Notes under the pieces: generated by a model
What the model saw: only the letters and a program-made list of their open reading frames with translations
What the model was told of the DNA's origin: nothing
Database searches by the model: none
Shown: positions 30,401-39,400 of the stretch, one piece after another
Layout: the number at the start of each line of letters is the position of its first letter
Position numbering within the stretch: position 1 is the first letter of the stretch
Program-made: the position numbers and the translations under genes
NCBI RefSeq assembly: GCF_037975245.1
Contig: NC_092565.1
Span: 8,178,999-8,242,998 of the forward strand
Source of the DNA: Apostichopus japonicus
Taxonomy: Eukaryota; Echinodermata; Holothuroidea; Aspidochirotida; Stichopodidae
Direction of reading: 5' to 3'
Length of the DNA stretch: 64,000 nt

Positions 30401-33400
30401 CCTGACTGGACTTGGTGAAAACTGTAATAAGATTTTGTAATAAAAAAACAACTCCTTTAGATTTGGTGTTAAGAATTCACTTTACGTGTTAGATGCATCT
30501 CATACTTGTCGAGTATTTTGAAAATATCATATTAGTCAAAGGCTTTCAAAGTCTGAAACCCTTGTAAAGATAAGCTTGGATGAATTTTCATACTTGCTAT
30601 GTCTTCAATGAATTTCATACTTAGTGTGTCTATCCAAATTTAATGAGTACAAAGAGCAATAGCAATAGCTGGTTCAGGTAGTTATTTACACCAGTGATCC
30701 CAATGTCCAGGGGACCCTGAGAGTTGGTTACGAAATTTTAGCCACATAAATAATTGATTTGCTTTCACGTAAGGGTTGCATACAGGAGCAGACATTAATT
30801 CAGATCAGTGAAGGGTACAGGGAAGAACAGGCTATGGACTGCCGTTCTTGTTTTCAAATTAATCAAGATTCCATTATAACAAACCCTTACACAACAAAAA
30901 TACGCAATGTTTAATTAAACTGATAGAAATGATAGCACCAACTTGCATATATAAGTACCATACCCAGTTCCATAATTTCTCGTATGGGCCTCATGTTAAG
31001 CACAGTTTAGATGAAATGAGGTTGTAGGGTCGAAGCTCTTGAACCAGGGCCCCTGAAAGCCAACTAACATACAAAAATCCTATCGGTGTTTATAGAGATC
31101 AAAGGATGTTTGAAGTCAATAGAGTGATAGTCTGAAAACCTTATAAAATAGGATAACCCCCATAGGAATGCTTGGATGGACTGGATTTAGATCCATCTTT
31201 GGTGATTTCATGTTCCTGTTTTTTTTTTTTGCAGATGTGAAAAGATTGGATGGTTCAGTCTATCTCGTATTTCTGGAGTCAGCAGCAGGACATCCATGAC
31301 ATCATGAATATCACTATGGCTACAACTAACATGGCCGACTTGGGGATATGCTAACAGACCAAGGAGCCAGAGAACAACTAAGCCTCTTTGGCTGTCTGCT
31401 TTACTGATATTTTGTGTAATGTAATTGTATAATATCATGTAAGATATATAGCCTTGCTGTTTTTTCTCTTTAATATAAAAGAAGAAGCTAATTGAAACTT
31501 ACTGTTCCATGACCATTAGCCTCAAAATAAACACCAATATCAAACTCGGCTGCTTTGTGATGCAAATGTTTGACTCCAGTCTTTACACAAGCAACAGGTA
31601 CTTTCTGTTGGTCAAAATGGGAAATATGGAAAAGTCAGTTTCATTGTCTGTAGTATCCAAATATGACAAACATTAGACCTTCAGTTAAACCACAATGTCC
31701 TTCTCAACATACTTCTTAGTACACTTACTTCTTAGTGCTTCTGCACTGAGCAGGAAAACCCTCATTAAAGATGACAATAATAATAAAAATAAATAAAAAA
31801 CACATATAATACTGAGACTTGTTTGAAATAAGGTTTAGCAATGGCAAGGTATAAACAACTGCTGTAGCTAAGATGGTTCATCTCATTTCAAGTTTGTTTG
31901 ATTACATGTATAGACACAAATCTCACACTACTCAAACTAGTGTTGGTTTCTTTTTTCTCTCCATCCTTTGTCTACTAATCCCCTAACATCTATCTCTTTG
32001 TGTTCACCCTGCTCATTAACCTGTCTGTATTCTGTGCTTTTATTTGTCCCTTCTGTTACTTGTCATTCAGCCTCTGAAGAAGATCCTGCTAGGATCGAAA
32101 CGTCAGGCCAACTTACTTTTACACACTTCTCAAACTACTGTAACAAGTTACTGATTACACATTCACATAGCACACTAAACACATAGTAGTTATCTCTAAC
32201 ATTTCTTCTTCCTCATAAAATGTAAATATTAAAAGGTACAAATGTTTCACTGTTATGAGATGTGATTACAAACATATTTTATGTTTAATGATCCCACTCA
32301 ATTGGAAGAAAACTTAATAACCTATTAGAGACTAACATTCAATTCATCAAGAAATTTGTAAGTCGAGAATTCTTACATCCTGAGGTGTTATCACGGTAAA
32401 CATCTTAAATGCAGAGATTAAAAAGGAAGACAAATATCAAAGAATAGCAACCGATATCTTGTTATTATTTAGGTTTATTTGCATTTGTGTTTTCTCAATT
32501 CTCTGAGGATATCCAGTCATACCATTGTAACAAAACATGTATAAAGGTACATACTATTTCTTGAACGGCATATTGAGTTGAGCTTCCATTGGCGTAGGCT
32601 GTCTGGACAAGACCAACATTCAGAGTAAGCCCTGACAAGGTAAGAAGATTCTGTATGTAACCTGCAAACTAAATAAACAATATGCTTTAATTTTCATGGA
32701 GTATGTTAAAATACATGACAATATAATCAATTACTATTAAACTAAATTTATGTCAAACTATTAAATAATTTTACAAAACTATGAAATAATTTATTACAGA
32801 TAATAATTTGAATATTCTAGCAAATTAACATACTAATTTATCTCAACAAGATACTTATGCTATATGTGAATGGGTGTCAGTCAGGCAAGGGTCTTCATAG
32901 TACTGTAATTGAAGGCCTGTAAGAAACATTTTTTTACAGCACGTTAATAGAATTTGCATACGTAATTGGTTATAGTAAAAAGAAATATATAAAACACTGA
33001 AAGTTCTAGACTGTGTCCAGAATATTAATGATATACTAAACAGGGCTGTTGCTCAATGTGATTGAATGTAGGCCTAGGTTACTGGTATAGTGATCAATTG
33101 TAAAGGTCACTTGGGCTGTACCAATTAACAAGGAAATATCCCTGAATAAATGGCCCATTTGGCAGTTATAAACCTCTGAAATCATGATGGTATGTTCATG
33201 TGTGTTTTTAATGAAGGCCAAATGTCATTTGACAAAAGAGTGCAACGTCTCAAGAAGGAGAATCTTAGATGATGATATTTCCTACTAGGAAAGTGGATAA
33301 AACATATTGGTTTGATGAACCTGAAGTGTATGTCAGAAGTCATGAAGAAACAAGTAACAAGACCTCATTCTTTAGTGGAGTTGAATGGTCATTTACAGGT

Positions 33401-36400: not shown

Positions 36401-39400
36401 ACTTGACCTATGTAAACATCAAATAACCTTCTCATATTCACAATTTCAATTGAGGATTTTTAAAAGTTGAAGGTTCAATCTTGTTCATGGCAAAGGCCAT
36501 CTCGCACAACTTTACAACACTAAACCCTGGTCTTTGGTAACTTGTCACACCCACACACCAAACAGTGCACAATAGAGGCAATCCCTCTTGGGGCACATAT
36601 GATATATTGCTACCAAGTTACCAAGCTACCTTGGGACCAAGTTAACAAGTACCAAGCTGCCTTGGGACCAAGTTACAAGGACCAAGCTACCTTGGGACTG
36701 AGTTACCAAGTACCAAGCTACATTGGGACCAAGTTAGCTTGGGACCAAGCTACTTTGGGAAAAAGTTATCAAGTATCAAGCTACCTTGGGACCAAGTAAC
36801 CAAGTACCAAGCTACATTGGGACCAAGACCAAGTTACCTTGGGACCAAGCTACATTTGGACCAAGTTACCAAGCTACCTTGGAACCAATTTACCTTGGCA
36901 CCAAGTTACCTTGGGACCAAACTACCAAGTTACCAAGCTACCTTGGGACCAAGTTAACAAGTACCAAGCTACCTTGGGACTGAGTTACCAAGTACCAAGC
37001 TACCTTGGGACCAAGTTACCTTGGGACCAAGCTACTTTGGGACCAAGTTATCAAGTATCAAGCTACCTTGGGACCAAGTTACCAAGTACCAAGCTACATT
37101 GGGACCAAGTTACCTTGGGACCAAGCTACATTTGGACCAAGTTACCAAGCTAGCTTGGAACCAATTTACCTTGGGACCAAGTTACCTTGGGACCAAGCTA
37201 CCTTGTTTGCATGCTAATTGTTTGCAATTAAGTGTCAACTTTGCAAGACGTACTTTTTCATTGAGTTTACCGGTTGTACCATCATTGCAAACTGAGATGT
37301 CCAAAGTTCCTTTCAGAAAACTGAGTAGCTGTTGTATCTTTAATGCCCCAACCCCATTGGCACCATCCACAATAATAACAGGAGAATAGCCTCTGTCCCC
37401 ACTGGCCGAGACCTGCAACATAAATTACTCAGTGAAAATAACATGTGGTTGAAAAACATTAACAAGGACAAGTAAAATATTGCTATAAAACTTAATGCCT
37501 GATCATATTAACAATGTGTAAAAGTAAGTTGGCCTGACGTTTCGATCCTAGCAGGATCTTCTTCAGAGGCTAAAAAGTCAGGCCAACTTACTTTTACACA
37601 TTCTCTTACACAGGCTCTCTAGTAGATAAGCAATTTGCTAACAGTTTTACTTTATTTTGATCATTTTAACAAGACATTGAAAGTACGTCTGCATCTAACC
37701 TGCAATAATAACGTCTGTAAATATACCTGCCATACTGCAAACAAGGCAGCTAATATTATCTGTCTACATTAAAACCTGTAACTTTCCACCCAACATATAA
37801 ATGATAACTGCATTTAGCAAAAAAATGTGTCTGCTTCTTAACATTGTTCTTTTAGTTTATAAGCCATAGCACCAACTGAGAGGTAAACCCTTAAAATATG
37901 TGATGAATCTTTTGACATTTATACTCATATATGTTCCCTTACTCTCTATGACGAAAATGTGAAGAAAAATAGACAGAACGAGTAGCATAACAATAATATT
38001 TTGGACCAGATAAAAAATTGCACAACAGGAACTATAGCTTGACCATTGAAGTCATGAATAACTCTTATCTGTGTGTTACTCATTTATGGTGTCTAATTTT
38101 GCAATGGCATACGATTTAAAGTTTCCAGTTTGATAATAGTAGATGCAATTGTTATTTCCTTCATAATGTCACAAGACCATGCATGTTCATATGCTACAAT
38201 GTGCACAGGTTGATTTTTTCCTCCTAATATCGGTAATGTATGCATTTGTATCTGAAAGAGGATCTTGTACTGCCAGCTGCATTATGTAATCAATGGAGCT
38301 TTATCTATGTATATATCATGATTCATTACTAATATGAGGGTAGGAGAGGAACAACTTTCTTGAGTCATCAATCATTACCTAAAAAGCTTCTTAGCTTCTA
38401 TCTTTTAAATCAAACCTCCGGGCAAGATTTGTTAACCCTCACCAGCTACATGATGCTAACAGGAGTCTAATCCTGTAACATTACAGTATACTCTTACCAA
38501 TTGTCTCAATTTTAAGTATGCCCGAGACAGTTTTGTGTAGTAGCCTTGTTCTGTTGGTTGGCCGTACAATCCCTTAGTATTGTGACATCTAACCATATAG
38601 TGGAGTTGTGGCGTGGTTAGCAATCCTGTCAAATAAGAAAAAATCTAGTAGAATCACAATTGTCCAAACACTGCTTCCATATAATGAAACTTGAACTGAG
38701 GAGACATGAAGAAGAAACCAACCAAACATCACCATTGGACGATTGGATTGGATGGATACTGAGGACAATTCTATTAAGACTGGAGTGAGAAAAGTTCTGT
38801 TAAGACTGGAGACTGAGGATAGTTCTGTTAAGACTAGAGACTGAGGAAAGTTCTGTTAAGACTGGAGACTGAGGAAATTTCTGTTAAGACTGGAGACTGA
38901 GGAAAGTTCTGTTAAGACTGGAGACTGAGGAAAGAGCTGTTAAGACTGGAGACTGAGGAGAGTTCTGTTAAGACTGGAGACTGAGGAAAGTTCTGTTAAG
39001 ACTGGAGACTGAGGAAAGTTCTGTTAAGACTGGAGACTGAGGAAAGTTCTGTTAAGACTAGAGACTGAGGAGAGTTCTGTTAAGACTGGAGACTGAGGAA
39101 AGAGCTATTTAGACTGGAGACTGAGGAATGTTCTGTTAAGACTGGAGACTGAGGAAAGTTCTGTTAAGACTGGAGCCTGAGGAAAGTTCTGTTAAGACTA
39201 GAGACTGAGGAGAGTTCTGTTAAGACTGGAGACTGAGGAAAGAACTGTTAAGACTAGAGACTGAGGAGAGTTCTGTTAAGACTGGAGACTGAGGAAAGAG
39301 CTGTTAAGACTGGAGACTGAGGAATGTTCTGTTAAGACTGGAGACTGAGGAATGTTCTGTTAAGACTGGAGCACTGAGGATAGTTCTGTAAAGACTGGAG

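Follow-up and report, generated by a model that had tools for sequence, protein, structure and literature searches.

Paired outer ends in head-to-head Penelope-like element insertions of Apostichopus japonicus, viewed from a palindrome with a hammerhead-like core

Inverted ends, tails and hammerheads in known elements

Inverted ends, tails, target-site duplications (TSDs) and minimal hammerhead motifs are already in print for Penelope-like elements (PLEs), as the accessible text of several reports makes clear (PMC3846280; PMC11167929; PMC7761336; PMC6155905). Penelope of Adineta vaga is described with inverted pLTRs, one of them optionally tailed, with TSDs and with palindromes at the junctions, and self-priming is the explanation favoured there (PMC3846280). 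A purified PLE protein cleaves and extends both strands of its target in vitro and prefers AT-rich DNA; the cDNA starts at a position internal to the RNA, and the tail is the stretch between two reverse transcription (RT) start sites (PMC11167929). The accessible part of the same work reports no difference in start site between the top and the bottom strand, the pairing of start sites within one insertion lying outside its scope (PMC11167929). The minimal type I hammerheads of PLEs (Cervera and De la Pena 2014; Lunse et al. 2017; both as presented in PMC7761336 and PMC6155905) are said in the latter two sources to cleave as dimers. In the text accessible to date, accounts diverge on the way PLEs complete their insertion and on the reason for the frequent inversion of their ends, with self-priming (PMC3846280) set against the both-strand cutting and extension observed in vitro (PMC11167929).

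The family described here resembles Adineta vaga Penelope in having an inverted terminal copy at its other end, head to head and with a tail on one copy, as well as in its short TSDs, its junction palindromes and its tandem and truncated copies; unlike the latter as described in the accessible text, it is found as inserts of about 60-150 bp at thousands of places, and the counts make a rule of end pairing measurable (PMC3846280). With the Poseidon PLE of Anolis carolinensis (PAc) it shares an ORF with RT and GIY-YIG domains, tandem units, a hammerhead motif, two 3' ends bounding a tail and AT-rich targets (PMC11167929). For PAc, the accessible text demonstrates cutting and extension of both strands in vitro, not the pairing of the two cDNAs of one insertion, and the PAc hammerhead overlaps the start of the ORF, whereas no in-frame start is seen at the core of the present PLE (PMC11167929). 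The motif itself is like the minimal type I hammerheads in its CUGANGA, stem II, GAAA and GUC, in having no helix III and in its thousands of dispersed copies, and is unlike those in the accessible descriptions in an extra A between CUGAAGA and stem II and, at the locus considered below, in the position of the core inside a 26-bp stem (PMC7761336; PMC6155905). Among titles and abstracts, no account of start-site pairing within one PLE insertion was found, which is weak evidence of absence with most subscription papers outside the scope of the search. The useful addition made here is the end-pairing rule together with near-identical long arms.

The palindrome of the window and the family it belongs to

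The window, i.e., the whole stretch of 64,000 nucleotides analysed (C5:8178999-8242998, in a searched genome of 671.6 Mb), contains an exact inverted pair of 24 bp at 37515-37538 and 37577-37600. The original prediction had described such perfect arms around a minus-strand core; two further outer bases pair as well, giving an unbroken stem of 26 bp (37513-37538 / 37577-37602), and a repeat search of the window scores the same palindrome as 30 nt at 97%. Between the arms lies a single hammerhead-like core on the minus strand, and the 35-nt core at 37535-37569 has an exact copy on the opposite strand at 32071-32105, with no copies in 100 dinucleotide shuffles of the window. The arms were also rightly said to repeat the sequence downstream of this other copy, the matching stretch 3' of its core being 32101-32117. 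Element positions are given below on a coordinate called ref, which is a piece of one real copy (L077:526-1252) with the core at 615-645, the predicted cut at 645/646, the tail-less 3' end at 666 and the tailed 3' end at 727. The features are:

37501-37514, no strand: left TSD GATCATATTAACAA, 13/14 identical to 37659-37672
37513-37538, no strand: 26-bp perfect inverted repeat, left arm, with 24 bp belonging to the element (repeat search and fold)
37515-37576, minus strand: tail-less arm, reversed PLE 3' end, ref 666 to 607, followed by two additional A at 37575-37576 (alignment, 607-668)
37536-37566, minus strand: hammerhead-like core CTGAAGAAG..CGAAACGTC, with cleavage predicted at 37536/37535 (GTC^AGG on the minus strand)
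37577-37602, no strand: right arm of the 26-bp perfect inverted repeat (repeat search and fold)
37577-37658, plus strand: tailed arm, sense-oriented PLE 3' end spanning about ref 643 to 727 (BLAST alignment from 639, exact match from GTCAGG)
37601-37658, plus strand: PLE tail, ref 667-727, between the two recurrent 3' ends (alignment and locus census)
37659-37672, no strand: right TSD GATCATTTTAACAA (comparison with the left flank)
31976-32130, plus strand: other window copy, a tail-less, single-armed PLE fragment, ref 511-670 (core match and alignment)

The insert is 144 bp long (37515-37658) and is bracketed by 14-bp TSDs that are identical at 13 of 14 positions; in the TSD test the locus scores 9 (13 bp, one mismatch), which 1.7% of shuffled flank pairs reach. 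Both outer ends are PLE 3' ends, the tail-less one (ref 666) closing the arm at 37515-37576 and the tailed one (ref 727) the other arm, and the two arms stand head to head, the tailed arm beginning just upstream of the predicted cut site. Since one TSD pair surrounds the whole and the same outer ends recur genome-wide, a single PLE integration event is indicated, and the palindrome is, judged by its sequence, a single strongly truncated PLE insertion, within which a later central deletion is possible. A dense short tandem/inverted repeat of the type ACCAAGCTACCTTGGG is found at 36900-37216 of the window, adjoining the exon at 37262-37412.

Genome-wide, 4,315 places match the 41-bp core with no more than 3 mismatches vs 0 for the reversed control, and longer copies run upstream of the core into an ORF. 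In L108 this is a 513-aa frame with matches to RVT_1 (36.7 bits, cut-off 29.6) and GIY-YIG (22.7 bits, cut-off 22.6). Searching the genome with the L108 ORF yielded at least 87 rows (84 of 3,723 candidates scored), with open frames of up to 953 aa among the matches listed. On C20, C10 and C11 such rows follow each other in tandem about 3,252 bp apart, as in the tandem units (pseudo-LTRs) of PLEs, and one array (L140) was read; inverted terminal copies, an optional tail and TSDs, likewise typical of PLEs, emerge from the locus census, the TSD test and the long pairs presented below. By these sequence features the family is a PLE with an RT and GIY-YIG ORF. Stand-alone insertions of about 60 bp with little beyond the hammerhead-like motif, some of them with clear TSDs, are present at L016, L017, L019, L031, L044 and L092. 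The same insertion is also seen at two loci of one chromosome in the cases of L010/L011 and L151/L152, which are probably duplicated segments; L010 and L011 share their visible flanks too.

Regarding the motif, CTGAAGA, GAAA and GTC are all present in the window core, i.e., the conserved elements of a type I hammerhead and an NUH cleavage triplet, with one additional A after CUGAAGA and before stem II. A single copy is predicted to fold into stems I and II only and not into three helices; GAAACGUC gives no stem III within one molecule, and a dimer could pair ACGU/ACGU as stem III. An Rfam scan of the whole window found no family at its gathering score, and at E up to 10 the ten weak matches in 37300-37800 include no hammerhead. 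Lacking stem III as a single molecule, carrying one nucleotide too many in its core and matching no Rfam hammerhead, the motif is called hammerhead-like here and not a canonical hammerhead. The best of the weak matches, mir-74 (23.2 bits vs a cut-off of 57, E 0.0083), was taken as a match of hairpin shape. A search for stem II covariation with the second stem pair changed gave 3 places vs 1 for the control, one of them with a compensated pair, too few for a claim, and a search for the CTGATGA variant gave 13 places vs 2 for the control, largely made up of point variants of this family, and no sign of another large family built in this way.

The single copy at 32062-32121 is predicted to form hammerhead-like stems I and II with an open core at -12.5 kcal/mol, a fold no more stable than those of shuffles (z -0.94). 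The minus-strand RNA of 37513-37602 has a predicted energy of -50.6 kcal/mol vs a shuffle mean of -16.0, and in its predicted 26-pair stem the GUC triplet is paired and the CUGAAGA strand pairs with UUUUUAG. The local transcript would thus form a 26-bp hairpin in place of the hammerhead-like fold, its cleavage site being buried in the long stem, and the altered folding expected for a PGM3-sense transcript is borne out at the level of structure prediction. The minus strand is the sense strand of the window core, and the minus-strand frames of the window carry, in gene order, motifs that we take to be those of PGM3 (51 protein letters, not shown); since one 50-aa exon of the putative gene gave no match in sequence searches of Pfam and PDB, the gene name is a putative one based on these motifs.

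Outer ends, arms and junction centres across the genome

The census consists of 100 exact 41-mer places among the matches listed on C1-C4, which make 95 loci. L001-L039 were found with the palindrome as query and are biased to palindromes, and the further loci read include others besides those ranked by palindrome similarity (again biased); unbiased counts are those of the 95-locus census only. Single-armed copies account for 70 of the 95 loci (38 tail-less, 32 tailed) and inverted segments for 25. Of these 25, 24 hold a head-to-head junction, in agreement with the recurrence of inverted junctions raised by the original prediction, and the junctions number 25, two being in L108; tail-to-tail junctions number 2 (L108 and a weak 29-nt piece at L085). 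The outer ends are tail/no-tail in 18 of the 19 classifiable head-to-head junctions (binomial p 7.6e-5 vs one half), a tailed end being called by alignment to ref 727, which read-through into a tandem unit may mimic. The exception is L073 (tail/tail). Six of the 25 are unclassified, with an end cut by the locus edge or lying elsewhere in the element, and one of them, L084, is tail/no-tail once its right end is read (L161). The near-duplicate L011 (of L010) was excluded from the outer-end reading, the subfamily-site test and the junction counts, and L152 (of L151) from the junction counts.

A TSD score of at least 10 was obtained for 42 of 94 insertions, biased and unbiased loci being taken together and insertions less than 40 bp from a locus edge omitted, vs 0.4% of shuffled flank pairs. 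Median TSD length is 13 bp, and A+T makes up 79% of the TSDs vs 60% across the loci as a whole, the composition set (n=42) being made up of 41 of the 42 scoring at least 10 (a poly-T one omitted) and the window TSD.

Longer copies display the same arrangement. Using 86 of the 87 listed ORF rows (at least 87 exist; the query's own row was omitted), neighbours within 8 kb are head to head in 11 cases, tail to tail in 0 and in the same direction in 11, three of which are pieces of one ORF. Outer ends of the 11 long pairs are tail/no-tail in 9, with 1 exception and 1 unclassified. Six of them (L156, L157, L158, L162, L163 and L164) were read whole and are tail/no-tail with a TSD by eye around the whole in 6/6, and the pairs on C11, at C8:906823 and on C4 (L128, L129) are also tail/no-tail. 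The C20 pair is the exception, with one tailed end and the other end at ref 698, and the C10 pair is unclassified because its tailed ends may continue into tandem units. Over about 1.64 kb the arms of the six pairs differ by 0, 0, 0, 1, 3 and 1 bases, L156, L157 and L158 having been noticed through equal ORF-search scores, which may lean to identity, and L162, L163 and L164 having been picked by adjacency alone; the median difference between arms of separate loci is 0.61% (72 comparisons). In the subfamily-site test, to which few loci with long overlapping arms contribute, arms agree at 27 of 29 diagnostic comparisons, both disagreements being at L084; arms paired across loci disagree at 46% of diagnostic sites, and non-diagnostic sites disagree in 96 of 2,119 cases. 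Near-identical long arms suggest one RNA, or RNAs of one source. Against an RNA of a single unit, the arms of L084/L161, one insertion with a TSD by eye, are unlike at two subfamily sites, which could come from a tandem RNA with unlike units or from two RNAs.

Two loci display particular centres. In L012 (C8:908600-909950), two long PLE arms are joined head to head by a run of about 35 A; they match perfectly across 640 bp and extend outward, past the tail, in the direction of ORFs. At 4090-4190 of L158, repeated GGTACGAAT units lie at the centre of a 3.4-kb head-to-head PLE palindrome and were possibly made during joining.

When all loci are considered, 46 tail/no-tail pairs are available, of which 26 are symmetric to within 10 nt, mostly around ref 599-611, the tailed arm reaching further 5' in 9 and the tail-less arm in 11; for unbiased loci only, the corresponding numbers are 9, 5 and 4. 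In the 11 of the 46 where the tail-less arm reaches further, the window locus among them, each arm has sequence absent from the other. In an alignment-based count, 30 of 105 5' ends fall at ref 599-611, every other 13-nt bin from ref 300 on having at most 7; this count is preferred over an exact-walk count in which 12 of 40 fall at ref 599, mostly longer copies differing from ref there. The pile-up at ref 599-611 directly precedes the core, and some 39 nt separate it from the predicted cut (645/646), a distance by which ribozyme cleavage was ruled out as its source. Tailed and tail-less copies alike stop at ref 599-611, and thus the 5' stop is tied to position, not length. The simplest reading of the pile-up is a putative RNA 5' end, for which an initiator and a downstream promoter element at ref 606 are unproven candidates. 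Tight palindromes are centred near ref 598 in 3 cases, with alleles concordant by eye, and near ref 607 in 18; L157 has a tight centre with a short loop. Copies ending at ref 607 (L002, L013, L026, L039, L055, L063, L071 and L109) carry a T just before it and longer copies mostly an A, the T being either an extra one added at the end or derived from a variant source.

Probable priming from both target ends and its alternatives

The likely course is priming of cDNA at both ends of the target, probably with one RNA as template, followed by joining of the cDNAs. The RT/GIY-YIG protein would have cut both target strands about 14 bp apart, and each free 3' end would have primed reverse transcription, one at each of the neighbouring start sites, a single RNA most likely serving for both. 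These cDNAs would then have been extended toward the RNA 5' end, often just upstream of the hammerhead-like motif (about ref 606), and joined. Both cDNAs reaching the RNA 5' end would yield a near-perfect palindrome; at the window locus the tailed arm may have halted earlier, near the predicted cut site, or may have lost its start by central deletion. The counts fit double-ended priming, the outer ends being the start sites, one of each, and so does the published biochemistry of cutting and extension on both strands with start sites on either side of the tail (PMC11167929). Points against this explanation are L073 and the C20 pair, which break the end pairing, the tail-to-tail junctions at L085 and L108, the unlike arms of L084/L161 and the equal use of start sites by top and bottom strands in vitro (PMC11167929). 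In L1 twin priming, both target strands prime on the element RNA and an inverted insertion results. The present insertions are alike in the priming by both target strands and differ in that both outer ends are 3' ends, whereas in L1 the second primer lies further upstream in the RNA and the 3' end is not known to be repeated. A more far-reaching proposal is that one RNA was reverse transcribed twice in every head-to-head PLE insertion, the ends of the target break priming at two neighbouring start sites, one each, and that perfect palindromes arise if the RNA 5' end at which both enzymes run off is shared and lies a short way upstream of the hammerhead-like motif. This proposal is tentative, and we give it slightly less than an even chance.

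Self-priming, where a single cDNA or antisense RNA folds back and is copied into the inverted arm, would account for the symmetry within 10 nt of over half of the tail/no-tail pairs (26/46), for the tight centre and short loop of L157 and for near-identical arms, although symmetric centres such as L157 fit double-ended priming equally. Under self-priming, however, the first arm should hold all of the second, yet only one arm has the tail, and both arms have exclusive sequence in the 11 pairs mentioned above, the window locus included. Foldback followed by central deletion could yield some of these 11 pairs but not the tail rule, and self-priming is on the whole unlikely.

Quite improbable is the scenario of the original prediction, in which two separate copies were inserted head to head and one was then almost fully deleted. 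Both arms are indeed element sequence, central deletions in palindromes are plausible, and the head-to-head junction of element origin stands; the second copy and its loss do not, given the single TSD pair around the 144-bp composite, which makes this course of events unlikely, and the recurrence of the head-to-head arrangement and of its outer ends at ref 666 and 727. The six long head-to-head pairs read whole are also each bracketed by a TSD, judged by eye. Palindromes are prone to misassembly, but an assembly artefact is scarcely credible, as the two TSD copies differ at one base, the arms are unequal and many independent loci share this architecture. A foldback DNA transposon or MITE with terminal inverted repeats, which high-copy short palindromic insertions with a TSD might bring to mind, can practically be dismissed, as symmetric terminal inverted repeats are lacking with 70 of 95 loci single-armed, the outer ends are unlike (tailed vs tail-less) and longer copies lead into the RT/GIY-YIG ORF.

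For the PGM3 intron the insertion likely has a modest meaning, as the stable predicted hairpin should silence any ribozyme activity there. With thousands of short copies, many of them with readable TSDs, models of PLE insertion become testable by counting. If each head-to-head insertion does record two reverse transcriptions, as in the tentative proposal above, the inverted pLTRs of PLEs would be the expected product of double-ended target-primed reverse transcription.
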